Part shown: piece by piece, positions 7,661-44,671 of the stretch
Layout of the letters: each line of letters opens with the position of its first letter
How positions within the stretch are numbered: the stretch's first letter is position 1
Assembly: GCF_037911135.1 (NCBI RefSeq)
Contig: NZ_JBBLYU010000001.1
Span: forward strand, 2,046,001 to 2,110,000
DNA: 64,000 nt
Source of the DNA: Phaeobacter sp. A36a-5a
GTDB taxonomy: Bacteria; Pseudomonadota; Alphaproteobacteria; Rhodobacterales; Rhodobacteraceae
Reading direction: 5' to 3'
Translations under genes and position numbers: made by a program
The notes under the pieces: generated by a model
Seen by the model: the letters and a program-made list of their open reading frames with translations, nothing else
What the model was told of the DNA's origin: nothing
Database searches by the model: none

Positions 7661-7736
7661 CTCACCGGTTCCCTATCTTCATAGTCCGTCGAATGAGATT
7701 AGCAGCGCCGAAATCAAAAACCATGCTTTACAAATG

Positions 7737-7762
7737 AAAAAAGCGCCCGCGTGGGGCGCTTT
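7737..7762 (-). terminator. Intrinsic terminator of the acyl-CoA synthetase gene
   Basis: On the minus strand a 9-bp stem (AAAGCGCCC paired with GGGCGCTTT) has a 5-base loop and runs into a T tract. It lies 40 bases beyond the stop of the acyl-CoA synthetase and upstream of the hydrolase, so it separates the two transcription units. The A and T runs on both sides may let it act in both directions. Confidence 0.85.
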
Positions 7763-7802
7763 CTGATGCTGGGGTGGCGCAGTGCCATCCGCCGCTCTGG
7801 GA

Positions 7803-17251: not shown

Positions 17252-17414
17252 CGCCCATGGCTTGCCCCCAGCCCCAGCGGTGGCGAGGCCATGGCGGCCC
17301 GCAGAAGATTGATCCAGCGCCCCCGCCCTGCCGTAATGCCATCGAAACACCCGCAGGCGACCCGCAAGGTCGATGCCCTGCCAGCCCCCTCCTACAGCCG
17401 AAAGGCTCTTCCAG

Positions 17415-18179
17415 ATGACCGATCCCGCCCCCCTGCCCCCACATCGCCCGACCGCCGTGATTACCGCGCATGGCCAGCCCTCCGATCCGGCACCCCAGGA
17501 ACGCGCGCTGGCCGATCTGGCCGATGCCGTCGCTGCGCTGTTGCCCGACTGGGATATCCGCTCGGCCACGTTGTCCACAGCTGATCGACTGGAACAGGTG
17601 ACACCAAAGGGCGCGCTGATCTATCCGTTCTTCATGGCCAACGGCTGGTTCACCGGCTCGGTGCTGCCCAAGCGGCTCCATGGGCATGATGTTCACCTGT
17701 TACCCCCCTTCGGTCTGGACCCGGCCCTGCCGGAACTGGCCTGCAAGGCGCTGGCCACGGCCTGCGAGGCACGCGGATGGTCGCTGCCCCGGACCCGCAT
17801 CCTTCTGGCCGCTCATGGGTCGGCCCGGGGGCCCAAGGCCGCCGAAGCCGCCGAGGCCTTTGCAGCCGCCATGCGCCACCACCTGCCGGGCACGGATCTG
17901 GTCACAGGCTATGTCGAGGAAGATCCGCGTATCGCGGACGCCGCCCGCGATCTTGCAGCGGCCAAACCGGAACACCCGACCCTCTGCCTGCCGTTCTTTG
18001 CACAATCCGGCGAACACGTCCGCGACGACATCCCCGAGGCGCTGGCCGATGCCAGTTATCCCGGCGACATATTGCCCGTGCTCGGGGCGCTGCCCGGCGT
18101 CCCCCAGCTGATCGCCGACGCCCTAAGGCAGGCTCTCCTCGGACCAAACCCGGCAGCAGACAAAGCCGGTCGGATCTGA
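17415..18179 (+). CDS. CbiX/SirB-like chelatase family protein
   Basis: A 254-aa protein with two half-domains of the class II chelatase type (CbiX/SirB), which insert cobalt or iron into sirohydrochlorin-type tetrapyrroles. The first half has VITAHGQPSDPA (a metal-binding histidine) near residue 15 and the second LLAAHGSARGPKAAEAAEAFA near residue 132, followed by FFAQSGEHVRDDI. Two similar halves in one chain suit the long form. I chose the ATG at 17415; an in-frame start at 17373 adds 14 poor residues. No other cobalamin gene is visible nearby, so the metal is unknown. Confidence 0.7.
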   Translation: MTDPAPLPPHRPTAVITAHGQPSDPAPQERALADLADAVAALLPDWDIRSATLSTADRLEQVTPKGALIYPFFMANGWFTGSVLPKRLHGHDVHLLPPFGLDPALPELACKALATACEARGWSLPRTRILLAAHGSARGPKAAEAAEAFAAAMRHHLPGTDLVTGYVEEDPRIADAARDLAAAKPEHPTLCLPFFAQSGEHVRDDIPEALADASYPGDILPVLGALPGVPQLIADALRQALLGPNPAADKAGRI

Positions 18180-18409
18180 CCAAACCCGCCCGCAGCCCGG
18201 CGTAACCGTCCCCCGTTGCGACACCCGGCAGGGCTGCCGACAGCCACCAAGGCAGCCTGCCCCGCTGGCGCCCCCGGCAGATCGACACTCAAAGCGGCAC
18301 TCCAGCCCATTGCGGCCGCAGAATTTTTCAAAATTTCCCGCCGGTTCTGCGCACGCCCCCTTGCACCGTCCCCCGGCATGTGATTAATCACGCCTCACAC
18401 CACCGGTAA

Positions 18410-18483
18410 GGCGAGTTGGCGGAGTGGTGACGCAGCGGATTGCAAATCCGTGTACACCGGTTCGATTCCGGTACTCGCCTCCA
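18410..18483 (+). tRNA. tRNA-Cys (anticodon GCA)
   Basis: A complete tRNA: acceptor arms GGCGAGT and ACTCGCC, anticodon loop containing TTGCAAA (anticodon GCA), T-loop GTTCGATTC, discriminator T at 18480 and an encoded CCA at 18481-18483. Its last 19 bases are repeated at 31033, so it is the integration site of the following island and has been kept intact by it. Confidence 0.97.
18465..18483. repeat. attL, left 19-bp direct repeat
   Basis: The sequence ATTCCGGTACTCGCCTCCA forms the T-arm and acceptor end, including the CCA, of tRNA-Cys. It is identical to 31033-31051, and the flanking bases differ on both sides, so the repeat is exactly 19 bp. Confidence 0.92.
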
Positions 18484-18546
18484 CATGTCCATATGGACCT
18501 TATTTCCTTGATAATATAGTCAGAAAGTCTCTGAAGGGACTAGGAC

Positions 18547-18577
18547 TGACATTATGCCTGACACTACAGGCGACATT
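18547..18577. repeat. Left arm-type sites: three TGACATT-like repeats, 12-bp period
   Basis: TGACATT (18547), TGACACT (18559) and CGACATT (18571) follow each other at exactly 12-base intervals between attL and the integrase gene. The same word with the same period occurs just inside attR. This is what arm-type binding sites of a tyrosine integrase look like. They also lie in the integrase leader, so they might be used for autoregulation. Confidence 0.65.
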
Positions 18578-18591
18578 ATCCGAGAGGTGAG

Positions 18592-20085
18592 ATGTTGAAT
18601 TGGCATGCCGCCAGAGTGAGCCGCCGAGGCCAGAAATACTATGTTGTACTAACCGTCCCGAAAGAGGCACGAGCCGCCGTGGGAAGTACGCAACTGAGGA
18701 TTTCTACCGGCACCTCTGATCTTAAGGAAGCAGAGAAGAAACGCTGCGACCTTGAACTGCAGATGCGCCAACAGATCCTGAGGAAGGTTCAAGAGAACCG
18801 GCTTTCAGCAAGAGACAGTGCATTTCAGACAGCAGTAAGAGAACTGGGCCTCACTGACGTGAGCTACCTATTTCCGTATTGCCAGAAAATTGGCGACGTC
18901 GTCCCTCAAACCCTGGCTGATGCACCCCCCAAAGACCGCTATTCAGCCAATAAGGCCATACAGGAACTGTCAAAGGCTGAGACAGAGATACGCCTCGCCT
19001 CACTTCATCCTGAAGATCCCTCCAGGCAATTGATGCTGCTGGAACGCTTTGACATGAAGCCACCATCTCCTGACAAGGCCGCCGAACTCGTCGCGAACGC
19101 GAAGCAGGAGTTGGAACGCTCCTTTGGCGATAGCAAACCCACAGTCACCTTGAGTAGCTACCTTGGTGCATTTGAAAGCTCACTGAACCGTCGCGTAGAA
19201 AACGGGAACTTGCAGGAGAAAACCAGCAATTCAAGACTAAAGAACATTGGACAGTTCATCGACGTGGTTGGAGATCTCGAACTGACGGAACTAGAGGCAA
19301 AACACGCGTATCAGTTTGCAAAGCAACTTGAAGCCGACGGAAAAGCACACAGAACAATTCAGACCCGTATCAGCGACGTCACGACCATGCTGACCGAGGC
19401 CGTCCAAGATGGCGAACTTAAGACTAATCCGTTCAACGGCCTCAAGCTCGCAAGGTTCGGCAAAACGGGTCGAAACTATACCCCGCTAAACGACCGCCAA
19501 TTGGAAGCCCTATTCTCAATCCGTGACCTACCTAAAGATGTGCGGGACATCTGGGCAGTCCTGATTTGCACGGGGATGCGCCTTGATGAGGCCGCGCTAT
19601 GTAGGGTTCGGCAGGTCAGTGAGCGAGACGGAATTCTCTTTATAGATTTGCGCGACGCACGAGTGAAGAACGAGGGGTCGCGAAGGGAGGTTCCAGTTTG
19701 CGACACACTAGCGCCGCTAATCCGCGCAAGGGTAAAGGACAAAAAATCTGACGAGCGGCTTTTCGGGTTCTCCATCAAATCAGACGGGAAGAGCCGCGCC
19801 TCAGAGCAGTGTAGCTACTGGCTACCGCTGGCAAACTTGCCCAAGTTCGCAGACAGCCCAGACGGACTCTATGCAACGCACTCCCTGCGCGGAACGTTCA
19901 AGGACAAGTTGCGTGACGCAGAAGTCAATTTCGAGGTCAACAATGCAATTCTTGGCCATGATCAGCACACCGTGTCTGCGACCTACGGAAGAGGCCCCAG
20001 CCTGCAAGCCAAGAAAGAAGCAGTAAACCGACCAATCCACCGCTATCTGGAGTGGATCTCAGAAGATTATCCGGCCCTGAGTTAG
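18592..20085 (+). CDS. int: Tyrosine recombinase (phage-type integrase)
   Basis: A 497-aa site-specific recombinase. The N-terminus (HAARVSRRGQKYYVVLTVPK) resembles an arm-binding domain, the middle (about 180-290) looks like the SAM-like core-binding domain, and the catalytic domain holds the expected residues: Arg330 in CTGMRLDEA, His430 and Arg433 in THSLRGTF, His456 in LGHDQ and the nucleophile Tyr465 in TVSATYGRG. It starts 109 bases from attL and reads away from tRNA-Cys, the usual layout of an integrative element. GAGAGGTGAG lies just upstream of the ATG. Composition is less GC-rich than the flanking core genes, and it is intact. Confidence 0.95.
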   Translation: MLNWHAARVSRRGQKYYVVLTVPKEARAAVGSTQLRISTGTSDLKEAEKKRCDLELQMRQQILRKVQENRLSARDSAFQTAVRELGLTDVSYLFPYCQKIGDVVPQTLADAPPKDRYSANKAIQELSKAETEIRLASLHPEDPSRQLMLLERFDMKPPSPDKAAELVANAKQELERSFGDSKPTVTLSSYLGAFESSLNRRVENGNLQEKTSNSRLKNIGQFIDVVGDLELTELEAKHAYQFAKQLEADGKAHRTIQTRISDVTTMLTEAVQDGELKTNPFNGLKLARFGKTGRNYTPLNDRQLEALFSIRDLPKDVRDIWAVLICTGMRLDEAALCRVRQVSERDGILFIDLRDARVKNEGSRREVPVCDTLAPLIRARVKDKKSDERLFGFSIKSDGKSRASEQCSYWLPLANLPKFADSPDGLYATHSLRGTFKDKLRDAEVNFEVNNAILGHDQHTVSATYGRGPSLQAKKEAVNRPIHRYLEWISEDYPALS

Positions 20086-20180
20086 CGTCAGCAGAATTCA
20101 CCGCTATCGACTACCCGGCCCGCCACATGCGGGAGCCGGACGAACCATTGCAACCAAAGCAACCATGAAAGGAAATATGA

Positions 20181-20438
20181 ATGTCAATCACCGCTGCAGA
20201 CCGCCAAGAAGCCATCTTCCGCCTGATCTACCCTCAGACAGTTGCCGCATATCACGGAGTAGAGGCTCTGGAACAGCAAGCCAAAGCCCTGCTTCGATCC
20301 ATTTCGACCACGCGTAGAATTGCCGGTGTTCTATCTGGCAACGAGGAACAGCAGGAACGATGCCGGAAGGTACAAGCCGTCCTGACTGAGTTGTCGGAGG
20401 CGTGTTCGAAGGCGCGTCACAATTTCGGACAGATCTGA
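20181..20438 (+). CDS. Small hypothetical protein in the island
   Basis: An 85-aa charged, helical protein with AAGGAAA upstream of its ATG. It has no motif I recognise. The stretch VEALEQQAKALLRSISTTRR followed by glutamine- and glutamate-rich helices suggests a short coiled coil. It lies between the integrase and a small ribbon-helix-helix candidate, all on the plus strand and before a shared terminator, so it is probably part of the integration/regulation operon. It could be an excision or accessory factor, but nothing specific supports that. Confidence 0.6.
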   Translation: MSITAADRQEAIFRLIYPQTVAAYHGVEALEQQAKALLRSISTTRRIAGVLSGNEEQQERCRKVQAVLTELSEACSKARHNFGQI

Positions 20439-20557
20439 TTTCGAGTGCATGCAAAGCAGGTCCAATCAAAGGCGACAGCGTCTGCCGCATAGCAAAGGTA
20501 CGGCGGAGACCTGTGTCTCGCCCCCACTCCCATTAAGCTGAAAAGGAAACAAACTAG

Positions 20558-20728
20558 ATGCCTACACCAAATGAAAAAATCGACCAACCCCTGTCGATGC
20601 GCGGCCCCAAGACCGTAGTCGATCGCTTCAAGGTCATGGCCAAAAGTGAGCGATACTCGCAGTGGGAATTTCTCGAAATCCTGATGGATCGGTTCGAGGA
20701 GACCGGCGGGTTTCACCCCGACAAATAG
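20558..20728 (+). CDS. 56-aa ribbon-helix-helix-like DNA-binding protein
   Basis: A short reading frame from the ATG at 20558 to TAG at 20726-20728, with AAAAGGAA upstream. The segment KTVVDRFKVMAKSERYSQW followed by EFLEILMDRFEE fits a ribbon-helix-helix fold: a short strand, a helix beginning DRFKVMAK, a turn, and a second helix. Such small proteins act as repressors, antitoxins or partition proteins, and in integrative elements sometimes as excisionase regulators. It lies at the end of the plus-strand operon, 120 bases before a strong terminator. The fold is inferred from pattern only. Confidence 0.55.
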   Translation: MPTPNEKIDQPLSMRGPKTVVDRFKVMAKSERYSQWEFLEILMDRFEETGGFHPDK

Positions 20729-20847
20729 CACGTCGCAGCCCCTGTCACCGCACCCCAGAAGCAGGAGCGAAAACAGACAGAGGTTGTGACACTGGCGCAA
20801 TACACATTCCAAATGATGAATGTATCATAGGTGCTGGCCAAGGATCG

Positions 20848-20875
20848 CCCCCACCGTCGAAGTGGGGGTTTTTTT
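20848..20875 (+). terminator. Intrinsic terminator of the integrase operon
   Basis: A 7-bp perfect stem, CCCCCAC with GTGGGGG, has a 7-base loop and a run of seven Ts. It closes the plus-strand block that starts with the integrase and sits 75 bases before the converging end of the large leftward gene. Confidence 0.92.
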
Positions 20876-20949
20876 GATGTGACAGAAACTACAAATCGGA
20901 GCGGGGACGGGTTCCGTGCATCAAAACAGACACAATCCTTGTCACAACC

Positions 20950-23900
20950 TCATCGAAGCCAGTCAGCGGCCTCCTGAACACCCCGACTGACACCCGACAT
21001 GAACCCATTCATCTCCCGCAGAACGTCCAGTTCCTCGTCATCATCCTCGCCTGTCACGCCGTAGTAGAAGCCCCGCGTTAGAAACTTGGCGTAAGCATCG
21101 ATCTTTGCCATGTCACGAGGGGCCTTGTTCACTTCCCGCGCCAATCGCAGGAACTCGTTGGGGTCCATCAAAATGTTGTCCGTGACCTGGTGAAACACCT
21201 CATCGGGCCGCATGACGTCGAGAAACGCGCGAAACACGGTTCGGGCCTGCGTAGCTCCCCTGCTGAGCGGTCCAACGAGGACATTGATCATCCGGTTGGT
21301 GCTTTCCGCAGCAGCTCGTCCGTAGCTCTGTGCGTTGGCCCCCCGGATCGGTTTGGCTCGTGATGCGGAGCTGGTCTGCTGGGCAATCTCGGAAAGACCT
21401 CTGATGGTCTGCATCACCTCTGGGGCATCCTTGAAGATTTCATCCCCGATGCGGAACAGGGCCGTCTGATCGTTGCTGGCACGGACGATGTTTCGACCTG
21501 AGACCGCATTTACACCGCCGGTCCCCTGGGCCGGGTTGATCAGAGCCTCTCGCAAATGGCGGCTGTAGGTGGTTTGCAAACCGCGTTCCAGGATCGCCCG
21601 TCGACCGGCTGGCAAGCCGTCCATATGGCCCCGAAGCTTTTGCAGGGTACCCACAGCTTCCTTGGATCGGAAAATACCCTCAAACGAGGCCGTGGCGTTA
21701 GTCGTCGTCGCCATATCAGCCCCTGCAAAGAAGGTGGACAGCTCCCCCTTCAGGATCTCGTTTTGTCGTCGTTCAGCCTGCGCCGCAGCCTGTTCCAGCT
21801 CCTGGGCAAGCTGGGTCTTGTTGCGGCTCCCATCCTGCATAGCGCGAATGAACTGGTCGAGCTGATCCGCCTGTTCTGGGGCCACTTCTCGTAGCGCCTC
21901 AAGCTTCGGCAGCATCCGGGTTTGCAGATCCCCCAGCGTGGACGCATCCAGGCCCCTCAGTCTGATTTCGGTGCCGTAGCTGTTGACCACGTCGAGCGAT
22001 AGGTAGTTGGCAACCAGGCCATCGCCCTGCCCCGATTTCAATGCACCCTCAAGGCTTCGCAGCTCCGCCGGGTTGGCCTCACTCAAAGCCCCTCGCAACA
22101 GCTTATCGGAACGGATCCCGTAATCAACGCCGCTGCCGGTGCGGCCAAGTGTGCCTTCGTAAATCTCTGCGTATCTGGCCCCTACGCCTTCACGGAACAG
22201 CGGCGCAAATTCTTCCTCATAGAAGCGTTTAGCCTCTCGCGCTGCCTGGGCAATTTCCGGGTTCGACTTGGCCACCTGGTCGACCATATCGCCGTCTATG
22301 AAGGCAATCAGATCACGGGTCAGTTTCCCAGCGCTGCGTGTACTTGGATTGGCAAAAAGATCCTGGGCAAGCCCGGACAATGCAGGTCGCAATTCCCGCT
22401 GGAACCACCCGAAATCCTTGCCATTTTGAGCCATCCACTCAGAGAAGCCAGAAACCCCACCGCCACGGGGATCACGAGCCGATTGGACAGTGGCCAGGAA
22501 GTCGTAGATGGGGCTTTGGTCGCGAAGATATCGCTGGCTGTTCATCACCTCATCCGTCGCCAGGACGCTGAACCGGGACACGACCGAAGAGGCGTCAACA
22601 GATCCGCCCTGGATACGGCTGTACAGCTCATCCTTGCGGGCCTTCATGGTGGTGTAGCCAGTTTCCAGAGCCTCTTGCATGGCACGGATGTTTTCGCCAA
22701 CTGGCGCGGTTACCTCTGTCCCGACCACGTCTCCCAGGCGCTTCACCAGGTCCGGCAAAGTCGGGTCAGAGGATGCATCGGATAGGGCGTTGCGAGTGGC
22801 ATGGTCATAAGCTGCACGGGCCTCATCAACAGACGCAAATGCGCTATCCCGTGCCTCTCTACCTATTTGGGCGAAACCATCCGCAGCGCCGTCCAGCGTG
22901 GCGACCTGGGCAGCGGCATCGCCACCACCCAAAACGCGGGCTTGCTGGTCGAGCTGATCGGCCAAGGTGTCAGCGGCAGAGGTCCGAGAGGCTGCAAACC
23001 CTGTCAATTCTGGATTGTTGGCGAACCCGGCGGCGGTGCCTGCAATACGATTGCGCATCAGACGTTCATTCTCTGGAACCCCGCGCAACATGGCGCTGAA
23101 AGTGTCCAGCGTCGTAGTGACAGTTTCCTCTGCGTTCGTCAGGCTCTTGACCACCGCATCTTTGTTATCGGCTACCATCTGGGCGATATCTTCCACGACT
23201 GCTTGCCGCTCTACCGACGCGGTGGCGGTGTCGATCCCGGAGACCTTGCCGATGATGTCCCAGAAAACGTCCTTTTCCATCGCGTTTGGGCTGGTGACGT
23301 GCCGGTAACTCTCGATGATCTTCGCGCCGGTCGCTCCCCAGACTTGCCGCCCGGTCCACGACAATCCGGCCATCGTGGATCCCAGAGCCACGCCCTCGAT
23401 CATGGTGTTCATTCGGTGGCGGAGAACTTCTTCCGCCTGGTCCGGGTTGGTGGGATCAACACCACGAGAGAAAAGCAGGTCTTCGTCGGAACTCACCGTC
23501 GATGCAGCAGCGGCTTCAGTAGCAAGGAAACCGGAAATGCGGGCAGCAATTTTGGGGACCAAGGCCATGCCGCGTGTGATCGCTGCGATACCTGCCCCAC
23601 CATACACGGAGAAGGCCACAGGAGCGGCAAAATCTGCAATCAGGCTGTCTACCGTGCTGTGGCTCGTATCGTAGTCCAGGGACGCTCTGCGGGCGTCTGA
23701 GAGCAAATCTGTTCCGAAGGCCTTATCCAGGGCGGCGGCCCCCGCCTCTGTAGCGGCACCATAACTCTCTTGGAAACCCCGGTGCAGGTTCTGGCCAACA
23801 GAAACCGTGGCAGGCGGATCAGAGACGTTATCGCGCCATGCATCTGCCAGGGTCACATCGGTGAACGGGGCTTTGGCGGCGTCCCAGAGCAATCCGCCGA

Positions 23901-24339
23901 TGCTGGTGTCGGCCTCTGGTACGGGAATGATCTTGCGCTGGCCAGTGGTAGGGTCGGTGAAGCTGGCCCCCGCCAGTCCATGTTCTACTCGCGGATTTTC
24001 GGTCAGTGTTTTGTAACTCTGCATCGCCTCTTCGAAGGTCATCCCATCCCACATGCGAGAATGGATGGACGCAGGATCCATCTGCCCAGGTACCGGGATG
24101 CCCAATTCACGGAGCTGGTCTCCGGTCAGAGTAACCCGACTAGGTCCCGCCGCCCGCTTCTGCACTGGCGGTCTAGGCTGTTCGACCGGATCCGGCGCGG
24201 ACGGCAGAGGGATCCCCAACTCTTTCAGCTCCTCGCCGGTATATGTGCGACGACCCGTGGGGGTCGCCGGTTTATCTTCTTCCTGCTCGCCAGGGACTGG
24301 GATACCCATAGCGCGGAGCTGTGCTGCAGTGTAGCTCAT
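20950..24339 (-). CDS. Very large Ala-rich protein with N-terminal GIPVP repeats (virion/ejection-protein-like)
   Basis: The largest island gene, 1,129 aa from the ATG at 24339, which overlaps the previous stop in the sequence TGATG. The N-terminus carries three copies of a motif of the form T-x3-L-(R/K)-x2-G-I-P-(V/L)-P at about residues 3-17, 33-46 and 71-84, joined by proline-rich linkers. A hydrophobic stretch follows near residues 215-260 (PVAFSVYGGAGIAAITRGMA). The remainder is mostly alanine-rich, probably helical, with no enzymatic motif I recognise. The composition resembles internal or ejection proteins of tailed phages with short tails, but this is a likeness, not an identification. 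It is the last gene of a leftward block with the 195-aa and palm-like genes. Confidence 0.7.
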   Translation of the reverse strand: MSYTAAQLRAMGIPVPGEQEEDKPATPTGRRTYTGEELKELGIPLPSAPDPVEQPRPPVQKRAAGPSRVTLTGDQLRELGIPVPGQMDPASIHSRMWDGMTFEEAMQSYKTLTENPRVEHGLAGASFTDPTTGQRKIIPVPEADTSIGGLLWDAAKAPFTDVTLADAWRDNVSDPPATVSVGQNLHRGFQESYGAATEAGAAALDKAFGTDLLSDARRASLDYDTSHSTVDSLIADFAAPVAFSVYGGAGIAAITRGMALVPKIAARISGFLATEAAAASTVSSDEDLLFSRGVDPTNPDQAEEVLRHRMNTMIEGVALGSTMAGLSWTGRQVWGATGAKIIESYRHVTSPNAMEKDVFWDIIGKVSGIDTATASVERQAVVEDIAQMVADNKDAVVKSLTNAEETVTTTLDTFSAMLRGVPENERLMRNRIAGTAAGFANNPELTGFAASRTSAADTLADQLDQQARVLGGGDAAAQVATLDGAADGFAQIGREARDSAFASVDEARAAYDHATRNALSDASSDPTLPDLVKRLGDVVGTEVTAPVGENIRAMQEALETGYTTMKARKDELYSRIQGGSVDASSVVSRFSVLATDEVMNSQRYLRDQSPIYDFLATVQSARDPRGGGVSGFSEWMAQNGKDFGWFQRELRPALSGLAQDLFANPSTRSAGKLTRDLIAFIDGDMVDQVAKSNPEIAQAAREAKRFYEEEFAPLFREGVGARYAEIYEGTLGRTGSGVDYGIRSDKLLRGALSEANPAELRSLEGALKSGQGDGLVANYLSLDVVNSYGTEIRLRGLDASTLGDLQTRMLPKLEALREVAPEQADQLDQFIRAMQDGSRNKTQLAQELEQAAAQAERRQNEILKGELSTFFAGADMATTTNATASFEGIFRSKEAVGTLQKLRGHMDGLPAGRRAILERGLQTTYSRHLREALINPAQGTGGVNAVSGRNIVRASNDQTALFRIGDEIFKDAPEVMQTIRGLSEIAQQTSSASRAKPIRGANAQSYGRAAAESTNRMINVLVGPLSRGATQARTVFRAFLDVMRPDEVFHQVTDNILMDPNEFLRLAREVNKAPRDMAKIDAYAKFLTRGFYYGVTGEDDDEELDVLREMNGFMSGVSRGVQEAADWLR

Positions 24340-24926
24340 CAGGCTGCAATCCCCCCGTACTCCGCGCCAGTCAGGAGGCCCACAGCGATCAGCCACCCCA
24401 CCATTGGTTCTAGCGACCGGATACGCGGGGCGTGACTGCGACCTCGTTCATCGGCACCGGCGGCGTACAGCTCAATCCAATTTCGATGCGCGAAGACCCG
24501 GATGACGTTTTTCACACTGGGTGCCTTCAGATTGCTGAACCGCTGCCCCCGCTTATACAGCCCCTCACCGAATGGGATTGCGAGATGTCGGGGCGTATGA
24601 GGGCTGTTCTTTTCGATTTGCACGAGACCGTCGATGATCGGGCAAGCTGCGGCGATGAAGGACGGGGCGTGGGCGGTACGGAGATTTGGGAATTTGCCGT
24701 AGTTCACGGATTTGCCGCCTGCTGTCTGGGCATAGACCGTTTCTCCGACAGCTTCCCATGCCTTTTCATCATCTCGGAACCCGGCGAAAAGCGTCTCTGC
24801 GGCGGCTGTGACCTTTGATTTGTACTCCGGGGTGCCGAAAACGTGCGGGTTCATGCAGGCGTCGCCAGGTAGGTGTGGGACGCAGTTGCCCCAGCCTGAA
24901 GCGGGGCCAGTGTTGGATTTGGTCAT
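24339..24926 (-). CDS. Hypothetical protein coupled to the giant island gene
   Basis: A 195-aa protein of unknown function. AGGA precedes the ATG and the stop overlaps the start of the 1,129-aa gene (TGATG), so the two are translated together. Two cysteines lie near the N-terminus (NCVPHLPGDACMNPH), the middle is aromatic and glycine-bearing, and a hydrophobic segment ends the protein (MVGWLIAVGLLTGAEYGGIAA), which could be a single C-terminal membrane anchor or a buried helix. A consensus promoter lies about 215 bases upstream. It may be a chaperone or structural partner of the giant protein; this is inferred from coupling alone. Confidence 0.6.
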   Translation of the reverse strand: MTKSNTGPASGWGNCVPHLPGDACMNPHVFGTPEYKSKVTAAAETLFAGFRDDEKAWEAVGETVYAQTAGGKSVNYGKFPNLRTAHAPSFIAAACPIIDGLVQIEKNSPHTPRHLAIPFGEGLYKRGQRFSNLKAPSVKNVIRVFAHRNWIELYAAGADERGRSHAPRIRSLEPMVGWLIAVGLLTGAEYGGIAA

Positions 24927-25149
24927 TGGGTTGGTCCTATTGGGGTTTGGGGGTTGGCCCCAGGCACCCGCTCACCAGGAAGGAGGACGCGCCACACGGT
25001 CAGGCACAACTAATGCGCCGCTTGTGCCGGTGGGCTGAACGATGTGAGAGGTGCGAGACAGACGGATTTAATGGCCGGTTGCGGCGCTAGCGTCTGTGTC
25101 TCTGCTGGGGGGTTCGGAAGGGCGATGTGTTTTCGCTGCCTTCCCCAAT

Positions 25150-25178
25150 ATCATACCATAGGGGGCCTATTTTGTCAA
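25150..25178 (-). promoter_or_regulatory. Consensus sigma-70 promoter, leftward
   Basis: On the minus strand a perfect -35 box TTGACA (25178-25173) and a near-perfect -10 box TATGAT (25155-25150) are separated by exactly 17 bases. Transcription would start near 25143 and leave about 215 bases of leader before the 195-aa gene. It is the best-matching promoter I see in the window and would drive the 195-aa and giant genes separately from the palm-like gene upstream. Confidence 0.8.
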
Positions 25179-25186
25179 GCTTTTTC

Positions 25187-25207
25187 AGGGGTATGGTTCG
25201 CACCCCT
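25187..25207. promoter_or_regulatory. Inverted repeat AGGGGT/ACCCCT beside the strong promoter
   Basis: Six-base arms AGGGGT and ACCCCT are nine bases apart and end nine bases upstream of the -35 box. On the minus strand a weak T-poor tail follows, so an operator or activator site is at least as likely as a terminator of the palm-like gene. The word TAGGGGTG at its edge recurs in the tandem repeats near 28360-28397. Confidence 0.4.
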
Positions 25208-25241
25208 AACTGTACGTTTAACTAGGCAGGTAGCCCCCGGA

Positions 25242-26720
25242 TCAGCCCGTCGCACCCCTATTTATCTGGACACCACCCACACCAAACAGATCTTGAAACG
25301 CATCCGACATAACGCCCTTGAGCAGATCGGCCTTGGCTGATTTCACGATAAAACTGTCGTGGATCGGGATCGCAGCCACCCCTTGATCCAACAAGACAGA
25401 GAGAACCCGCAGCGCCAATCGGCTGTCTTTCGCCTGGAGTTCTGCCCACGCCTCATCCATGCCCAAGGCTTCGGGAGACAGACCCTCGTGGCGTGTCCAG
25501 AAGGCGTCATACATCCGCTCTGCCATGTCCATTGGTTCACCTTCTGCTTTCCGTCGATATCGGCCCTGCTGTCTCAGCGCATAGCGGATCGCGTTAATGG
25601 CCTCCGCCCGGCCTGAGCTGCCTACGGACCGGATAAGAACCATCTTCATGTCCGAACGATCAAATCCAGGCACATCGTACAGATCGGCATCATCGGGAAT
25701 GGCTTTGCCCGCGTGGGCGTACAACAATGACATCTGCATCCCACTATAGTCCAGCTCGACCGTGGAGCTGCCATCAATTTTAAGGGTGCCACGGAGGTAT
25801 GCCGGGATCTGTTGGACCCAATGACCATAGAGGCGGCCAGCACGGCCATCTTCCTCACTGAACACGCGGTACAGATCTTTTGACCCTCCCGTCTGGTACC
25901 GTCGACGCCCAGTCGTGAAGTCAAAGCTGCTTTCGTAAGCTCGGTAATCGGGGAAAGTGACCTGGAGCCGCTGGCGACGGAGTAGCTTGTTCAAGGCCGG
26001 TAGGACCGCTTCGTCAGAGTCCAATGGCCGATGGATCACGGTGACCTGGTTGCCGTGGCGTAGGCGCAGGAGCTGGTCGTCGGGGATGGCTTTTGCGCGA
26101 CCCAGACCGGTTGGATGGCCGTGGAAAATTAGGCCACAGGATAGCATCCAGTCCTTGAAGATCCCCAGCGGTCTGATGCGGGTTCTTAGGCGGATGTCGT
26201 TGTCGGCGTCCCCCACCCACATGGGTACAAATTCCAACCAGCCACGGTAGGCCAGCCAGATCACGAGGTTTCTGAACGCGGTATGGCTGATTTCTTCGAG
26301 GGCTTTGCCCTTTGCGAACTGCGCCTTGTCCAAGGTGATCGCCACATAAGACTGGCGCAGCACCTTCCCCTTTTCATCCGTGCGGGCGGGCGTGGACGCA
26401 ATGAAAGCCAGAGAGTGCAAAAGAACTTCTGCGGCACGGACATGAGGTTCCGATCGCGCTTTGGCCATGTCGGGTACGACTGGCTTTTTCTTACCCGGAA
26501 CATCGAGAGATTTGCCGGTTGCTGCCTTTAGGCGGGCATCACGACGAAGATCACGAAGCAGGTCAGAAGATGCTGCCGACAGACGCTCCCGGTAGACCTG
26601 GTCTCCCCGGATTTCCGTCAGCAAAGGAATGCTGTCCCGTGGATCGAGTGGCAGCTTCACGGCGGGCCGGTGCTGAATGAGTTCTGGCGCGTTTTCAATG
26701 AGGTGATCGTCGGCGGTCAT
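25242..26720 (-). CDS. Polymerase-palm-like protein (family A/single-subunit polymerase-like), putative replication protein
   Basis: A 492-aa protein with GGGAG upstream of its ATG. The first 200 residues include a possible winged helix (ALEEISHTAFRNLVIWLAYRGWLEF, about 140-164). The second half has, in order, GRLYGHWVQQIP (295-306), VELDYSGMQM (321-330, like motif A of family A DNA polymerases and T7-type RNA polymerases), a Lys/Arg-rich helix (359-390) at the place of motif B, and IPIHDSFIV (451-459, like motif C, in which these polymerases have HD). Proteins with this GR-(F/L)-YG...DYSG...HDS pattern are, to my recollection, common and mostly unnamed in alphaproteobacterial mobile elements. 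The active-site residues look kept. Replication is the best inference; the first product of the leftward block. Confidence 0.55.
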   Translation of the reverse strand: MTADDHLIENAPELIQHRPAVKLPLDPRDSIPLLTEIRGDQVYRERLSAASSDLLRDLRRDARLKAATGKSLDVPGKKKPVVPDMAKARSEPHVRAAEVLLHSLAFIASTPARTDEKGKVLRQSYVAITLDKAQFAKGKALEEISHTAFRNLVIWLAYRGWLEFVPMWVGDADNDIRLRTRIRPLGIFKDWMLSCGLIFHGHPTGLGRAKAIPDDQLLRLRHGNQVTVIHRPLDSDEAVLPALNKLLRRQRLQVTFPDYRAYESSFDFTTGRRRYQTGGSKDLYRVFSEEDGRAGRLYGHWVQQIPAYLRGTLKIDGSSTVELDYSGMQMSLLYAHAGKAIPDDADLYDVPGFDRSDMKMVLIRSVGSSGRAEAINAIRYALRQQGRYRRKAEGEPMDMAERMYDAFWTRHEGLSPEALGMDEAWAELQAKDSRLALRVLSVLLDQGVAAIPIHDSFIVKSAKADLLKGVMSDAFQDLFGVGGVQINRGATG

Positions 26721-26746
26721 TTCGGCGGCTCCCTATTACGGAGGGG

Positions 26747-26775
26747 GGGATATACTACCAATATTACTCAGTCAA
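26747..26775 (-). promoter_or_regulatory. Probable promoter of the palm-like gene
   Basis: On the minus strand TTGACT (26775-26770) lies 17 bases before TATCCC (26752-26747), in an AT-rich stretch unlike the coding DNA around it. Transcription would begin near 26740, about 20 bases before the ATG. The -10 box is weak at its last positions. Confidence 0.45.
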
Positions 26776-27201
26776 CTTTTCTCGAAATAGCCATATAAAT
26801 AAGGCAAATATGAACTTACACTAAACTCGACATTGGCCCAGATCCGCGCCGCCATCCGCCAGCTTCGAGGTCAGACCCCGACCCGTCCAACCAAGTTGAC
26901 AGAGTTGAAAACCCAATCTCAGGTCGGGGCTGTATACGATACCGGAGGTACCCCCCGGTGGCACTCGCCCGCCCCCCCCTTTCACGAGACCGCAAACAAA
27001 CCCGCCGTGACCTCGGACACCCAGCAACAGGCACAGAGACGCAGACCAGGCAATCGCTGCAGCACCCCGCGCGGAGCCTCCGTTTCTTTTGCCGCCGAAA
27101 TTCTCCGCACCTGTTTGATCTACAACAGCGCAGACCAGAAGACGGCCTCATAGGCTGCACCCCATCAAGTCCGGCAGGTAATCCTACCGGCCAGAAACGA
27201 T
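26776..27201. other. Non-coding stretch between divergent island genes
   Basis: About 550 bases separate the leftward palm-like gene from the rightward serine recombinase (to 27324). A plus-strand frame from a TTG at 26833 (106 codons) begins with a plausible helix (AQIRAAIRQLRGQ) but soon becomes proline- and arginine-rich without a ribosome site, so I do not call it. It may be the decayed start of a former gene. The right-hand third holds the repeats described separately. Confidence 0.4.
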
Positions 27202-27314
27202 GTTCACAGGGTATACCTTAACGAACAACGCAGAACCCCGTGCATGAGTTGCTCATTAGGGCTTGATCTCCCTTGTGAACACCCTTAATCAAAGAACACA
27301 ACCCTTATGAACAG
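27202..27314. repeat. Cluster of TGTGAACA-like half sites before the serine recombinase
   Basis: GTTC and GAAC form an inverted pair 25 bases across (27202-27226). TGTGAACA at 27274 is the inverse of TGTTCACA at 27201. The words GAACACCCTTA (27277) and GAACACAACCCTTA (27294) form a near direct repeat, and a further TATGAAC follows at 27306. The cluster lies 10-120 bases upstream of the recombinase start. This is where a resolvase or invertase crossover and accessory sites, or a self-regulatory operator, would be expected. Confidence 0.4.
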
Positions 27315-27324
27315 GTGATTTGAA

Positions 27325-27963
27325 ATGAGCCAGACAATCCTTTACGCCCGCGTCAGCACCACAGAGCAAACCATTGAACACCAGGAAGCCCAGGCGGTCG
27401 CAGCAGGGTTTCAGATTGATGAGGTGATCGCGGACGATGGTACATCAGGCGTATCCACCCGGCTAGCAGAGCGGCCCGAAGGTAAAAGGCTGTACGACAA
27501 GCTGCGCAAGGGTGATGTGCTGGTGGTACGCTGGGTGGACCGGCTGGGCCGGAACTATCAAGACGTCACAGATACCATCAGGTATTTCATGAAGAAGGGC
27601 ATCGTGATCCGCACCGTGATCAACAACATGACCTTCGACGGAGAAACTACCGACCCGATGCAAGAGGCTGTGAGAGACGCTCTGATCGGGTTCATGGCCG
27701 CGACGGCACAGGCACAGGCGGAAGCCACAAAAGAGGCCCAGAAGGCTGGCATAGCCCATCACAAGGCGACTTCCCCAGAGAAGTTCCGTGGACGTAAGCC
27801 CGCATTCACACGCGAGCAGTTTGACCAGGCACAGATTCTCCTGGCTGCAGGTCAGGGGCATTCGGCAATCGCCAAGGCCACGGGGATGAACCGGAACGCT
27901 GTTATTCGTATCGCCAAGGATCCAGCGAAGGCGGAGGCCGGCCTCTTGCGCTGGGGTCTCTGA
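27325..27963 (+). CDS. Small serine recombinase (resolvase/invertase family)
   Basis: A 212-aa site-specific recombinase. The catalytic domain has the nucleophile Ser11 in YARVSTTEQ, the conserved arginines in RWVDRLGRN near residues 69-77, and the long E-helix region rich in alanine and glutamine. The C-terminal domain is a helix-turn-helix (GQGHSAIAKATGMNRNAVIRIAK). AGGTGA lies before the ATG. It is a second recombinase in an element that already has a tyrosine integrase, and might resolve multimers or invert a segment. Its reading frame is intact. Confidence 0.92.
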   Translation: MSQTILYARVSTTEQTIEHQEAQAVAAGFQIDEVIADDGTSGVSTRLAERPEGKRLYDKLRKGDVLVVRWVDRLGRNYQDVTDTIRYFMKKGIVIRTVINNMTFDGETTDPMQEAVRDALIGFMAATAQAQAEATKEAQKAGIAHHKATSPEKFRGRKPAFTREQFDQAQILLAAGQGHSAIAKATGMNRNAVIRIAKDPAKAEAGLLRWGL

Positions 27964-28051
27964 GCCATTCACTGGACGCACCTCCCTCGCAGTAGGGAAA
28001 TTCGTTGCAGCAATGTCACTCGACCAAATCGGTCAGGTCACGGAGAACTGG

Positions 28052-28144
28052 TTACTTTCTCCGTTCCAGCCACCGAGAAATGAAGTGCCACAGGACACAC
28101 GCCAAGAGACTGACCAAAAGCGAGACGAAGGCTTCCAGAAGCAT
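28052..28144 (-). CDS. 30-aa membrane peptide, type I toxin-like
   Basis: A 31-codon frame on the minus strand starts at 28144 behind a very strong ribosome site, GGAGGAACA-ATG, and ends with TAA at 28054-28052. The peptide has an acidic residue near the start, a hydrophobic core (AFVSLLVSLLACVLWHFI) and a basic end (SRWLERRK). This layout, one membrane helix followed by tryptophan and charged residues, is that of Fst/Ldr-type toxins of type I toxin-antitoxin systems. A hairpin lies 40 bases upstream. No antisense promoter is established. It could instead be a small regulatory membrane protein or a chance frame; the ribosome site argues against chance. Confidence 0.5.
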   Translation of the reverse strand: MLLEAFVSLLVSLLACVLWHFISRWLERRK

Positions 28145-28182
28145 TGTTCCTCCAATGTCATGAATGCCGCTGCTTAGAACGC

Positions 28183-28208
28183 AAAAAACCCCCAGGTTTC
28201 CCTAGGGG
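28183..28208 (-). terminator. Strong intrinsic terminator, leftward
   Basis: On the minus strand CCCCTAGG and CCTGGGGG form an 8-bp stem (one G-T pair) closed by a GAAA tetraloop and followed by TTTTTT. It would stop leftward transcripts coming from the repeat region or from the ATPase gene. It stands directly before the 30-aa peptide, so the peptide would need read-through or a regulated anti-termination. In the plus direction the hairpin is weaker but could end an antisense RNA. Confidence 0.8.
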
Positions 28209-28314
28209 CTTTCGTTCAGGCGCAATACGGCCAACCTCAGTATGTCAAGGGGGCTAGAACTAGTCAAGCGCTAGCGTGGATGCATGGATCTTTTAGCAGG
28301 CTCTGGGGGCTGAT

Positions 28315-28397
28315 TAAGGGTGTACTACAGCACCGTGAGGGGGGCTGACGGAAAAAACATAGGGGTGTATGCAGTAAATAGGGGTGTATGCAGTAAG
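28315..28397. repeat. Iteron-like tandem repeats
   Basis: Two perfect 18-base copies of TAGGGGTGTATGCAGTAA begin at 28360 and 28379, a 19-base period. A degenerate copy, AAGGGTGTACTACAG, lies at 28316. Each type of copy is preceded by a GGGGGCTGA word (near 28304 and 28340). No gene covers this stretch. Tandem repeats of this length resemble replication-initiator iterons or repressor sites of mobile elements. Confidence 0.6.
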
Positions 28398-28975
28398 TAG
28401 GCAACGACCTACGAAACTTGTATATTGAAGCCATGCGTATTTGTCGCATCCTTGAGAGAGCAGCAGCAAGCCTGATTCCCAGGTTTGGTTATGCGCAGCT
28501 CACCCAATGGTTTGATGAGTAATTGACCACTATATAGCGGCCACCGTCCGGGACAACGATTGGTGCCTGACGCACCGGACAGATAGCAACTTCGGCTAGG
28601 GTCGGTATAAGGATGTCGGACCCTCAATTGTGTTCATGGCATGTCGTCGTGTCGTCTTTCAAGGGAAGTGTTTTGTTTCTCGGATACCAGACATTTTTGG
28701 CGATACTTAGCCCACAGCTTAACTCAGCCATCGAATACGATAGGTATCTTTAATGTTTAAACTCTGACCGGCAACCGCATACCCATACCGCCACCACCCC
28801 GCCGAAAGATATCCAAGGACAATCATGTGTGATTGTGGGCTTATGCTAATTCCCAACAGCGAGGAAAAAACCATACCGACGATACCGTCAAAAAGACTCC
28901 AGAAACGTTCTGTCCGGCAAGAAAAAATCGTAACACAATAGCCAATATCTAACCAGAAGCGCCGCTCCTAAAAAC
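28398..28975. other. AT-richer non-coding stretch
   Basis: About 580 bases between the tandem repeats and the end of the leftward ATPase gene have no frame with a ribosome site and plausible composition. A short GC-rich part near 28540-28590 contains opposing GTCCGG and CCGGAC words that could form a long-range stem, so an uncharacterised RNA is possible. I see no terminator close to the ATPase stop. Confidence 0.4.
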
Positions 28976-30592
28976 TCAAGAGCGAATACCCAATGCAGAA
29001 TGCAACATCGGATGGACTCTAATTTTTGTTTGCGCAGTCAGATGGCTATTTGGTAGTGGCTTTTGGGTTTGAAAAAAGAACTGATACGGCAGGTTTACGT
29101 CATATTTCACTCCAACTGCCCCCATCAAATGTAGCTTTTCAATCAACAAGCACGCGAGGTCAAACGGATCTACAGACTTTGATGTAGCGTCCTCCACTAG
29201 TCTCCACAGGGAGTCTTTTGTGTGTTCTGGGACGGCAGGGAAGCAGTTAACCAAATTATCCAGCAAATCGCCAGTACAGAATTCCGCCATCTGGAACACC
29301 TCTCTTTTCCCCCTCAGAAGATCAATCAATGACCCTGCTCCAACTACGACATTCTGCCATTCTTCAATCATCGCGGTTAGCCTATTGGCGGAGTAATCCC
29401 TTTCTGCTTGGCCGAATGCCTTTCGGGTAACTGCAGTATGTCCTTCGGATGCCTCCAGGCACATATTCACAAAATTTATTATATCTCTTGGCCTCATCAA
29501 ACTACGATCAAGGATTGCAGTAAACGGCTTACCTGTATTGGTAACCTTCTCACTGAATATATGCTCAAACATTACATTTTCAGAGTTATACTTCCGGCGA
29601 AAAAGGAAGTTGATCCGTTCATTAATCAACCTCTTCAATAACTTAGCATCCCAACGCAGGCGAATAATGTAGTCCTCATACTTCTCGCTCTGGAAGCCAT
29701 CATTCCGCGTCTCAAGAATAACCTTTTCAAGAAGGTCTGACCTTAAAGCGACCACTGTCTTCAAGTCCCGAATTCTTCTGAGACTCTTCAGGCTCTCAAT
29801 CAACGCTCTAATCAATGGATACTTAATAGAAGGGTCAATCCAATTTTCATCCAACTGATCAATTAAGATATAGCTTGGCTCCGACTTAGTAGCATGCTCG
29901 GCTAGAGTATCTATCACTTTAGCCAGGTCACTCAAAAGCTCCGGCGCAACAAATTTTCTCGCAACTCTCTGAAGTTGAGATTTCTTTTCAGAACTCAATG
30001 TTCGCACATATCCAGATCTCGCATTGAATCTTTCAACCTCTAACCCAAGCTCAGCATTTACAGTTTTCTCAAGGTTTTGAGTAATCTCTCGAATATTCTC
30101 ATCCATTGAAATCCAAAATTTACTCTCCCACTTCCTCAGATACTCAACTCCCCTTTGCTTCCTCTGATCCCTCGCAAACGCTTCGAATATCTGCGAAAAA
30201 ACAAATTTTGACCTCTGCTCATCAGAAACCTGAAATTTTAACCTAATAAACTCAATAAGAATTACATGCTTCCACAAAGCTTGAAAGAAAAGATCTAAAT
30301 TCACATCTATCGAAATCAAAAACTGGATAACATCACTATTCCCTAGATAATCAAGGGCCATCTCATCTAATTGGATCAAGCTCGCGCTAGAGGAGTCTCG
30401 TTCAATCTTTCGAATCAACGCCGTTTTTCCGGATCCAGTGCTGCCTAGTAGCAACATCTTGGGAGACCCTGCCTGCCTGAGTTCAGAAAGCGCAGCCACG
30501 TCGACAAAGCAGTCAAACAAGAACTCCTCGTCCGCTTCAGCAGATATTTTCCCGATCCTCGAACTTGCACTAAAAATAATTGGATTAACCAA
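28976..30592 (-). CDS. AT-rich P-loop ATPase (Sll1717-family-like), probable cargo/defence gene
   Basis: A 538-aa ATPase read from a TTG at 30592 with GGTGGGGTG upstream. It has Walker A GSTGSGKT (residues 50-57), Walker B YILIDQLDE (241-249) followed by the tryptophan in DENW, a sensor-like arginine in VVALRSDLLEKV, and RPRDIINF (367-374). These features match P-loop ATPases described as the Sll1717 family, related to KAP/STAND-type NTPases often found in mobile DNA. The base composition is much richer in A and T than the rest of the window, and the gene is alone at the distal end of the island, the usual place for cargo. A defence role is an inference; the family's function is not established to my knowledge. 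Confidence 0.65.
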   Translation of the reverse strand: MVNPIIFSASSRIGKISAEADEEFLFDCFVDVAALSELRQAGSPKMLLLGSTGSGKTALIRKIERDSSSASLIQLDEMALDYLGNSDVIQFLISIDVNLDLFFQALWKHVILIEFIRLKFQVSDEQRSKFVFSQIFEAFARDQRKQRGVEYLRKWESKFWISMDENIREITQNLEKTVNAELGLEVERFNARSGYVRTLSSEKKSQLQRVARKFVAPELLSDLAKVIDTLAEHATKSEPSYILIDQLDENWIDPSIKYPLIRALIESLKSLRRIRDLKTVVALRSDLLEKVILETRNDGFQSEKYEDYIIRLRWDAKLLKRLINERINFLFRRKYNSENVMFEHIFSEKVTNTGKPFTAILDRSLMRPRDIINFVNMCLEASEGHTAVTRKAFGQAERDYSANRLTAMIEEWQNVVVGAGSLIDLLRGKREVFQMAEFCTGDLLDNLVNCFPAVPEHTKDSLWRLVEDATSKSVDPFDLACLLIEKLHLMGAVGVKYDVNLPYQFFFQTQKPLPNSHLTAQTKIRVHPMLHSALGIRS

Positions 30593-31032
30593 GATTCACC
30601 CCACCTAAAATAAATATTACTATAAAGTAGACAATAGATTCCAGTTTACACAAGGTACCCCCAAACCGCCACTAGTTGAAAGTAAAATGTAGACATTAAC
30701 CCAACGGTGTATGCTCAAAGGCTGCAAGAGATATACATAGCAAGTGTACATTGCTAGCTTGCCCCTTCTAGAAACCGTCAAAGTCGAGCCTCGTTAGGAC
30801 GCACCGTAGGTTCTCGATATCGCCCTCTCCTGGAGAGCCAAATTAGGCCACGGCCACACCAAAGCTCTCGCAAGAGCGGCATAGACCTAGACGGCATTGA
30901 TTTAGGGAAACCAAAACATACGCATGAATGCGATAACGACTGACATTACCGGTGACATTTCACAATCCACCTCATAAAAATTTATATACGAAAAATCAAT
31001 AACTTAAATGAAAATCAGACAAGCAGACGGAC
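30593..31032. other. Right end of the island, non-coding
   Basis: About 440 bases between the ATPase start and attR contain the presumed AT-rich promoter region of the ATPase (a TATAGT box near 30620) and the two TGACATT repeats at 30941-30959. I see no convincing gene. Confidence 0.5.
30941..30959. repeat. Right arm-type sites: two TGACATT repeats, 12-bp period
   Basis: TGACATT at 30941 and 30953 repeat at exactly 12 bases, 75 bases inside attR. The same word and spacing are found inside attL (18547-18577) in the same orientation. This supports use by the integrase and independently confirms the right boundary of the element. Confidence 0.65.
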
Positions 31033-31051
31033 ATTCCGGTACTCGCCTCCA
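31033..31051. repeat. attR, right 19-bp direct repeat
   Basis: A perfect copy of ATTCCGGTACTCGCCTCCA, the 3' end of tRNA-Cys, stands alone here without a tRNA. GC-rich core DNA resumes immediately after it. Confidence 0.92.
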
Positions 31052-43998: not shown

Positions 43999-44033
43999 GG
44001 TGCCACTCCCCTATTGCGATCAAAGCTAAGCAC

Positions 44034-44061
44034 AGGATAAGCGCACGGCAATAAATTTCAA
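44034..44061 (-). promoter_or_regulatory. Promoter of the aryl-CoA operon
   Basis: On the minus strand TTGAAA (44061-44056) and TATCCT (44039-44034) are 16 bases apart, and the start codon of the first gene follows about 35 bases later. The -35 box is inside the end of the palindrome described next, which suits repression. Confidence 0.55.
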
Positions 44062-44082
44062 GCTTAAACTTTTAAACTTGAA
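44057..44082. promoter_or_regulatory. 26-bp palindrome, probable MarR operator
   Basis: The half sites TTCAAGYTTAAA and TTTAARCTTGAA read the same on both strands with only two symmetric pair mismatches (C/T and the centre). It is 59-84 bases upstream of the first gene of the operon and overlaps its -35 box. The size and position match operators of MarR regulators, and the operon encodes one. Confidence 0.75.
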
Positions 44083-44608: not shown

Positions 44609-44638
44609 AAAAAAACCGCGCAGCCTCGGCTGCGCGGT
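44609..44638 (-). terminator. Intrinsic terminator of ptsP
   Basis: On the minus strand CCGCGCAGCC and GGCTGCGCGG form a long GC-rich stem with a minimal loop, followed by seven Ts. It lies 34 bases beyond the ptsP stop. Confidence 0.92.
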
Positions 44639-44671
44639 CCCAATGCAGATTATGGTACGAAGGATCCCGGC

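Follow-up and report, generated by a model that had tools for sequence, protein, structure and literature searches.

What kind of mobile element has settled in a tRNA-Cys gene of Phaeobacter sp. A36a-5a, and what would a polymerase gene do in it? The locus lies in a window of 64,000 nucleotides (the whole stretch of DNA that was analysed; contig NZ_JBBLYU010000001.1, positions 2,046,001 to 2,110,000), where a 12.6-kb island starts at the end of the tRNA gene and contains, besides a tyrosine integrase (INT), a gene here called PALM, whose product can be assigned to the divPolA2 polymerase family. We consider it probable, though by no means settled, that the island belongs to a group of widespread alphaproteobacterial tRNA-targeting elements that share a core of INT and divPolA2 and otherwise carry exchangeable, often anti-phage cargo; INT would excise the element and PALM would start synthesis on the resulting circle. 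The features on which this answer leans are the following.

18410..18483, + strand: tRNA-Cys (GCA), the integration target (ARAGORN)
18465..18483, + strand: left attachment repeat, the final 19 bases of tRNA-Cys (exact 19-bp direct repeat)
18592..20085, + strand: tyrosine integrase INT with a DUF6538 N-terminal domain (Phage_integrase 1.7e-6, DUF6538 7e-10, phrog_1 9.2e-31)
25242..26720, - strand: PALM, predicted divPolA2-family polymerase, N-terminal domain plus palm of PolA/single-subunit RNA polymerase (ssRNAP) type (motifs, model, profile)
31033..31051, + strand: right attachment repeat (exact match to the left 19-mer)

The 12.6-kb tRNA-Cys island is real and repeat-bounded. In the window there are two copies of the 19-mer, against 5.7e-7 expected from base composition, and the 4.05-Mb genome contains it only at these two places, both at the island borders. 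An earlier note, made from the DNA letters of the locus, had described a complete island in tRNA-Cys with a perfect 19-bp repeat at both borders, an intact tyrosine integrase adjoining the tRNA gene, two recombinases and a mosaic composition, and this description holds throughout: the repeats are exact copies, the integrase is an open frame of 497 codons, the second recombinase is a serine recombinase (SER) of the Pfam Resolvase family, and the content of guanine plus cytosine (GC) is 0.43 in the gene for a P-loop ATPase, 0.53 in INT and 0.58-0.60 in PALM and two further genes, p195 and BIG (0.60 in BIG). The frames of INT, BIG, PALM, SER and the ATPase, all of them long, are open.

Within the genus, tRNA-Cys is an island hotspot, because the spacing and content of the locus differ between genomes G846, G847, G849 and G075. 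Both flanks were found in the first three, 23-102 kb apart. G846 has one copy of the 19-mer at the tRNA gene and a second about 102 kb away, less than about 300 bp from the right-hand gene that borders the island here; the right border is thus supported by one outside genome. In G849 about 71 kb separate the tRNA from the right-hand gene, with the second 19-mer in between. The right-hand gene of G847 lies about 23 kb from the tRNA, and the stretches read contain a single 19-mer, at 23 kb from the gene; it adjoins a partial integrase that shares 82% identity with INT across 114 residues. The tRNA of G075 is accompanied by a different integrase. The right-flank gene was not found in G075, G848 and G850 and had no match in the general genome-contig collection.

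PALM and the divPolA2 family

The name divPolA2 was introduced in 2024 by Yutin et al. for a PolA/T7-RNA-polymerase-like family of Caudoviricetes with a PolA/ssRNAP palm, its own N-terminal domain and no exonuclease, described from phages only (PMC11348598). Sequence comparison places PALM firmly in this family, with which it shares the relation to the published representative, the conserved palm residues, an N-terminal domain of its own and the lack of an exonuclease. A profile built from the bacterial loci matched that representative, AUR84708, with 85.5 bits (1.3e-27; hhalign 99.1%) and neither of two ordinary PolA decoys. No Pfam or NCBIfam family matched PALM; in PHROGs it falls into phrog_4756 (function unknown), as do 33/33 aligned family members. 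G295, R296, R310, Y348, K359 and D455 are present in all 33 sequences, E322 and D324 in 32 each, and no exonuclease family occurs among the Pfam matches of the 33. Single-sequence queries with PALM found no match in viral-contig or general genome-contig collections, nor did the PALM of locus L048 in the viral-contig collection.

That the protein is palm-like, as the earlier note had it, is borne out by the AlphaFold model (mean pLDDT confidence score 75.8; 76-97 per ten-residue block over residues 281-480). Its best matches among solved structures are A-family DNA polymerases: the Plasmodium apicoplast polymerase, Klenow and Taq come first, the top 27 are of PolA type and yeast mitochondrial RNA polymerase follows at rank 28, with low query-normalised TM-scores of about 0.2-0.33 among the matches listed. 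In a search of viral models the best matches were phage proteins, one of them labelled DNA polymerase (Rheinheimera phage Barba31A, 3.0e-18). Links to RNA polymerases are weak and consist of a mitochondrial RNA polymerase profile (E 1.3-2.4), Pfam RNA_pol in 1/33 members and phrog_414, an RNA polymerase family, in 1/33.

A-family DNA polymerases carry a glutamate five residues after the aspartate of motif A (D+5) and another at the third place of motif C; T7-like RNA polymerases lack both. A tyrosine in motif B is expected in either group. In PALM and its relatives motif C reads HD[SAC] instead of HDE in 32/33 sequences (one has N for H; the third residue is S, A or C in 33/33), and D+5 of motif A, in the 32 of 33 rows listed, is H in 19, Q in 4, N in 4, Y in 3, S in 1 and G in 1, never Glu. 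The absent glutamates would favour NTPs as the substrates of PALM. Because the motif B tyrosine is also missing, its place (K+8) being taken by N, G, H or S, we go no further than to infer that PALM may be a primer- or RNA-making polymerase.

When modelled separately, the N-terminal domain has mostly good confidence between about residues 31 and 200. Searches of the PDB gave weak matches to it, the best being an unrelated plant immune complex (E 0.13), with a winged-helix protein at E=0.15; 11 of the 50 rows listed are plainly unrelated proteins, and nearly all of the others are apparently MarR, GntR, PadR or similar winged-helix regulators. The domain also has a free-standing paralogue in the island, p195.

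Among phages, a divPolA2 query returned 239 records, mainly from phages of Rheinheimera (114) and Vibrio (100), some genomes having two or three places. Five phage proteins were placed on a tree of PALM sequences (66 tips, 272 columns, FastTree), where they form one nested group that also takes in a single sequence from an element, L134 (support 0.71). This topology allows a flow of the gene from elements to phages, as far as five phages can indicate. L134 (9215-10654) is an element PALM from another alphaproteobacterial family lying inside the phage clade, possibly through exchange. The bacterial-locus profile also matched gp100 of phage ICP1 (L166:8101-9768, MW794146.1), annotated as hypothetical, with 116.7 bits; a review of ICP1 assigns DNA polymerase to Gp58 and predicts no RNA polymerase in this phage (PMC9040626). 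Yutin et al. left the function of divPolA2 open between repair and RNA polymerase and found its paralogues in variable neighbourhoods; the words 'integrase' and 'satellite' occur 0 times in their main text (PMC11348598).

Recurrence with integrases and tRNA genes

The combination of PALM, an integrase and a tRNA gene recurs across Alphaproteobacteria and is not a one-off. With the single sequence, PALM relatives were found in 38/295 family genomes; the profile found them in 22/289 class genomes and in 16/299 phylum genomes, of which G700 alone lies outside the class, with the genome studied here included in the counts. For the family, 40 stretches were fetched from 33 of the 37 other matched genomes (G006, G013, G224, G281 and some second places were omitted); one of them (L033, the second G047 contig) was used for the serine recombinase count but not for integrases, tRNAs and repeats. 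The wider set comprises 28 loci of the class and phylum matches, G302, G435, G533, G455 and G700 being among those omitted. Stretches of at most 20 kb were scored, an enclosing repeat had to be exact and at least 16 bp long, and 20 hand-placed windows from the same family genomes served as controls.

An integrase was found near PALM in 28/39 family and 20/28 wider loci (pooled 48/67, p=7.4e-8), compared with 1/20 control windows. The integrase profile was made from the family loci, which tells against the family count, partly high by construction, so that the wider 20/28 is the fairer figure (p=2.8e-6). Near PALM, tRNA genes occurred in 19/39 family and 18/28 wider loci versus 3/20 controls (pooled p=0.0013), and repeats of a tRNA end enclosed PALM in 11/39 and 11/28 (pooled 22/67) versus 0/20 (pooled p=0.0012). 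The 22 bounded elements use 11 tRNA types and span 5.8-17.3 kb (median 10.4 kb), the visible size being limited by the finite length of the scored stretches. Serine recombinases were found in 14/68 PALM loci and in 0/20 controls. Two of three named plasmid loci fit the same pattern, those of Paracoccus versutus pBEN (tRNA-Gln, 27-bp repeat, 9.4 kb) and Neorhizobium galegae pHAMBI1141a (tRNA-Leu, 33-bp repeat, 14.5 kb).

The type of tRNA follows the PALM tree. Thirty tips labelled with the tRNA found in their stretch (L064 and L120 being unlabelled, and PALM frames shorter than 380 residues excluded) require 14 changes, whereas 2,000 shuffles needed 21.4 on average and at least 17. In the clade of the PALM studied here (support 0.81) six members have a known tRNA, which is tRNA-Cys in five of them. 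Such tracking, tested on the PALM tree only, is expected if PALM travels with its integrase. An element family is well supported by these data, and PALM is likely to be a core gene of the elements. We found no title or opening of an abstract that describes tRNA-bounded elements carrying divPolA2 in a literature search largely confined to journals without subscription, and to our knowledge such islands have not yet been described as a group. The term divPolA2 itself turned up there in two records, the paper of Yutin et al. and its preprint.

One 21-kb contig (L135, G398:C14) contains two PALM genes that are near-identical by branch length, at 7588-9381 and 16537-18330 and thus about 9 kb apart, perhaps a tandem element. 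Small contigs were also considered as free circular episomes, a view rejected after no exact terminal overlap of 15-400 bp was found in loci shorter than 15 kb.

Other genes of the island and its relatives

The remaining features of the island are these.

20181..20438, + strand: small hypothetical open reading frame (ORF), 85 amino acids (without Pfam family)
20558..20728, + strand: 56-amino-acid possible ribbon-helix-helix regulator (PF23807 E=0.0053, weak, under the curated cut-off)
20950..24339, - strand: BIG, 1129 amino acids, relative of a phage internal-virion/ejection-block protein (CRP-235 gp21, E=2e-12)
24339..24926, - strand: p195, a stand-alone paralogue of PALM's N-terminal domain (BLASTP 7e-10)
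27325..27963, + strand: small serine recombinase SER, resolvase/invertase type (Pfam Resolvase 2e-27)
28359..28396, + strand: 19-bp sequence in two perfect tandem copies, between the SER and ATPase genes
28976..30592, - strand: P-loop ATPase, Sll1717 family, TTG start (NF047389 9.6e-63, above cut-off)

PALM, p195 and BIG all point leftward, in that order. The BLASTP alignment of p195 spans PALM residues 23-198 (N-domain profile 5.2e-7), and its stop codon overlaps the ATG of BIG as TGATG, so that p195 and BIG are probably translated together. As a recurrent gene p195 was rejected: eight other frames consisting of the N-domain only include several split PALM genes and contig-edge pieces, and none is a proven full free domain.

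The earlier note had listed BIG as a giant Ala-rich protein and assigned it to no system; the frame is indeed large, and its product is a distant relative, over the full length and with 25% identity, of a protein of Roseobacter phage CRP-235, the only match at E up to 0.01 among 50,697 phage records. This protein, gp21, is the last gene product of a block with gp22 and gp25, in which gp25 has a match (9.5e-13) to a family of DNA ejection proteins. Since neither gp21 nor gp22 has a PHROG match, an ejection role of gp21 is suggested by gene position. Three IMG/VR contigs contain further BIG relatives, and in the one that was read (L077) a frame of 897 amino acids precedes the relative, as gp22 does in the phage. 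BIG and its phage relatives begin with a repeated short [YFL]T..[EQ]L motif, recognised by eye. The phage protein sits in a complete phage genome, whereas BIG stands alone beside p195. BIG did not turn up in the 294 other family genomes or, searched with a three-sequence profile, in the 239 other class genomes; it had no match in plasmids, none in the PDB by sequence, and none in the viral-contig collection with the single-sequence query. The closest integrase (43% identity to INT, beside tRNA-Cys) and PALM (44%) lie on one contig of genome G047 and the closest SER (68%) on another, and no BIG was found there. A search of the host genome, run without a positive control, found no relative of gp25.

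The Sll1717 ATPase is probably defence cargo. It also matches DS41_1_antiphage (2.3e-16, under the cut-off of that model), has no PDB match by sequence, and fits the pattern of the relatives' cargo. In 117 cargo proteins from bounded relatives (of 122 listed, two serine recombinases and three short ORFs being omitted), DNA methylases, restriction subunits and helicases are the commonest Pfam/PADLOC matches, followed by a Druantia-type methylase, mad2 and one TIR effector, with each match in 1-4 proteins; these are drawn from the 25 commonest of 80 Pfam, 411 PADLOC and 124 PHROG families. Non-defence cargo such as FMN reductase (3) is present as well.

Eight island ORFs, with most of the small ones outside this set, were scanned for hallmark genes of known systems. 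There was no match to terminase, portal or major capsid families, to relaxase, type IV secretion or other conjugation families, or in Pfam to AlpA, which as a small protein could escape, and the DUF3987/DUF5906 primase. Within the ORFs scanned, the earlier note was therefore right that conjugation genes are lacking and that the gene set corresponds neither to a prophage, nor to an integrative and conjugative element (ICE), nor to the satellite type tested (PICMI). Its statement that virion genes are lacking too has to be withdrawn: with a full-length relative of a protein from a DNA-ejection-protein block at 20950-24339, the island does contain a gene of virion type.

The tandem duplication lies in a non-coding gap of about 1 kb and could be a recombinase or replication site; its sequence does not recur in the 22 bounded relatives, 4 of which have some other close repeat. 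Outside the island, a lone GC dip to 0.517 at 44001-45000 possibly marks another foreign stretch.

A working model and its rivals

In the working model, INT would recombine the two 19-bp tRNA-end repeats, releasing a circle and leaving tRNA-Cys intact. The N-terminal, possibly winged-helix, domain of PALM would bind element DNA, on which its palm would start synthesis, most likely of a primer (RNA or DNA) to be extended by the host or by a helper phage. SER may resolve multimers, p195 as a free N-domain may modulate PALM at the same DNA, and BIG, as a phage ejection-type protein, may join podovirus virions or interfere with them. Excision, polymerase activity, the priming role, resolution, packaging and transfer are steps that we infer, and the model is offered as a proposal.

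Several observations weigh against it. PALM loci without an integrase amount to 19/67 and those without an enclosing repeat to 45/67, some of them at contig ends; the third named plasmid locus, Thioclava pTElox9, has no tRNA and no integrase by profile, though one is annotated about 8 kb away. When the Sll1717 ATPase was taken as a cargo control (12 of 22 places; the own genome, G092 at a contig start and eight weak rows were omitted), 5 of the 12 loci had an integrase, 5 a tRNA and 2 an enclosing repeat, a modest difference from PALM (p=0.047 for integrases and p=0.22 for repeats). In L044 and L047 the PALM gene falls into two neighbouring frames, which may mean that some copies are in decay or are translated across a frameshift. 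No excised circle was seen, and no uninterrupted empty site in seven genus genomes, all of which matched the joined-flank query (the right-flank gene is missing in three). Iteron-like repeats had to be rejected as a shared origin, given the island's own tandem pair, unrelated repeats in 4/22 bounded relatives and repeats in 5/20 controls. Finally, in the judgement of Yutin et al. divPolA2 is not the barbavirus replicase, and phages with divPolA2, where described, also have a regular replicative polymerase (PMC11348598).

Some of these points would suit an ordinary tRNA genomic island with INT as its sole mobility gene. PALM would then be one cargo gene among others, for instance a polymerase that acts against phages or competing elements, next to restriction-modification genes and the Sll1717 ATPase. 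Defence families are the commonest cargo of the relatives, Sll1717 loci also lie near integrases and do not differ significantly from PALM in their repeats, and phages contain divPolA2 at up to three places, with paralogues in variable neighbourhoods (PMC11348598). Against this stand the tRNA type, which tracks the PALM tree as if PALM travelled with its integrase, and the higher share of PALM loci with an integrase, and we regard such an island as rather unlikely. Unlikely, too, is that PALM is a dedicated ssRNAP that transcribes the element (in phages, phage genes), its N-domain reading promoters and p195 acting as a competitor repressor. This reading builds on the steric-gate and HDE/HDS assignments, that is, on motif C and the absent glutamate of motif A, together with the weak RNA polymerase matches; the best structural matches, which are DNA polymerases, and the replaced motif B tyrosine argue against it. 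An RNA polymerase is also one of the two functions that Yutin et al. left open (PMC11348598).

BIG raises the further question of a phage satellite, induced and packaged by a helper podovirus, in which a helper-derived BIG either secures the ejection of a small genome or spoils helper virions. The homology of BIG to gp21 at the end of the ejection block, the shared N-terminal motifs and the related polymerases in phages would agree with such a satellite. It is nevertheless improbable in view of the unmatched terminase, capsid, AlpA and primase families, the failure to find BIG in the other family and class genomes and the lack of a match to gp25 in the host genome. Very improbable is a former prophage stripped of its structural genes: the integrase, one ejection-type protein and a polymerase family also found in phages would fit, but the long frames are open, the integrase-PALM pair recurs in many loci, and the phage divPolA2 sequences are a small nested group on the PALM tree. 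On the hallmark genes of the ORFs scanned, readings of the island as a simple prophage remnant, ICE, pipolin or PICMI were rejected. A bolder version of the proposed reading, which we put forward tentatively and think doubtful as a whole, would see in these islands an unrecognised alphaproteobacterial class of self-starting integrative elements, with a thumbless PolA/T7-RNA-polymerase-like primase-polymerase (divPolA2) as hallmark and a role as reservoir for large marine phages (barbaviruses, ICP1); the present copy would in addition have acquired an ejection protein from a podovirus and coupled it to a free polymerase DNA-binding domain, so as to travel in virions or sabotage them.

Compared with known systems, the island resembles pipolins in being an integrative element with its own polymerase; theirs is a PolB (piPolB), whereas PALM is PolA/ssRNAP-like and matches PolA-type structures (PMC7385651). 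Like tycheposons it is tRNA-targeted and has a tyrosine recombinase and variable cargo, but these span 4-200 kb and carry nutrient cargo, and the main text of a citing paper uses the word 'polymerase' 0 times (PMC10872708). PICMI satellites are likewise small and marine and combine defence cargo with an integrase and a gene for nucleic-acid synthesis, but they require AlpA, the DUF3987/DUF5906 primase and a Fis gene, none of which was matched in the ORFs scanned (PMC10803314). The divPolA2 family itself was described from phages, and here it appears in tRNA-bounded bacterial elements with an integrase.

So far an orphan phage polymerase, divPolA2 thereby gains a biological setting in integrase-adjoining, tRNA-bounded islands, and it links these to the phages that have a relative, including ICP1. 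It is a possible marker for defence-carrying islands, which common tools may miss because PALM matched no Pfam or NCBIfam model. If its role in priming or transcription is true, small mobile elements would have here a new way to replicate autonomously, comparable to that of pipolins with their PolB.

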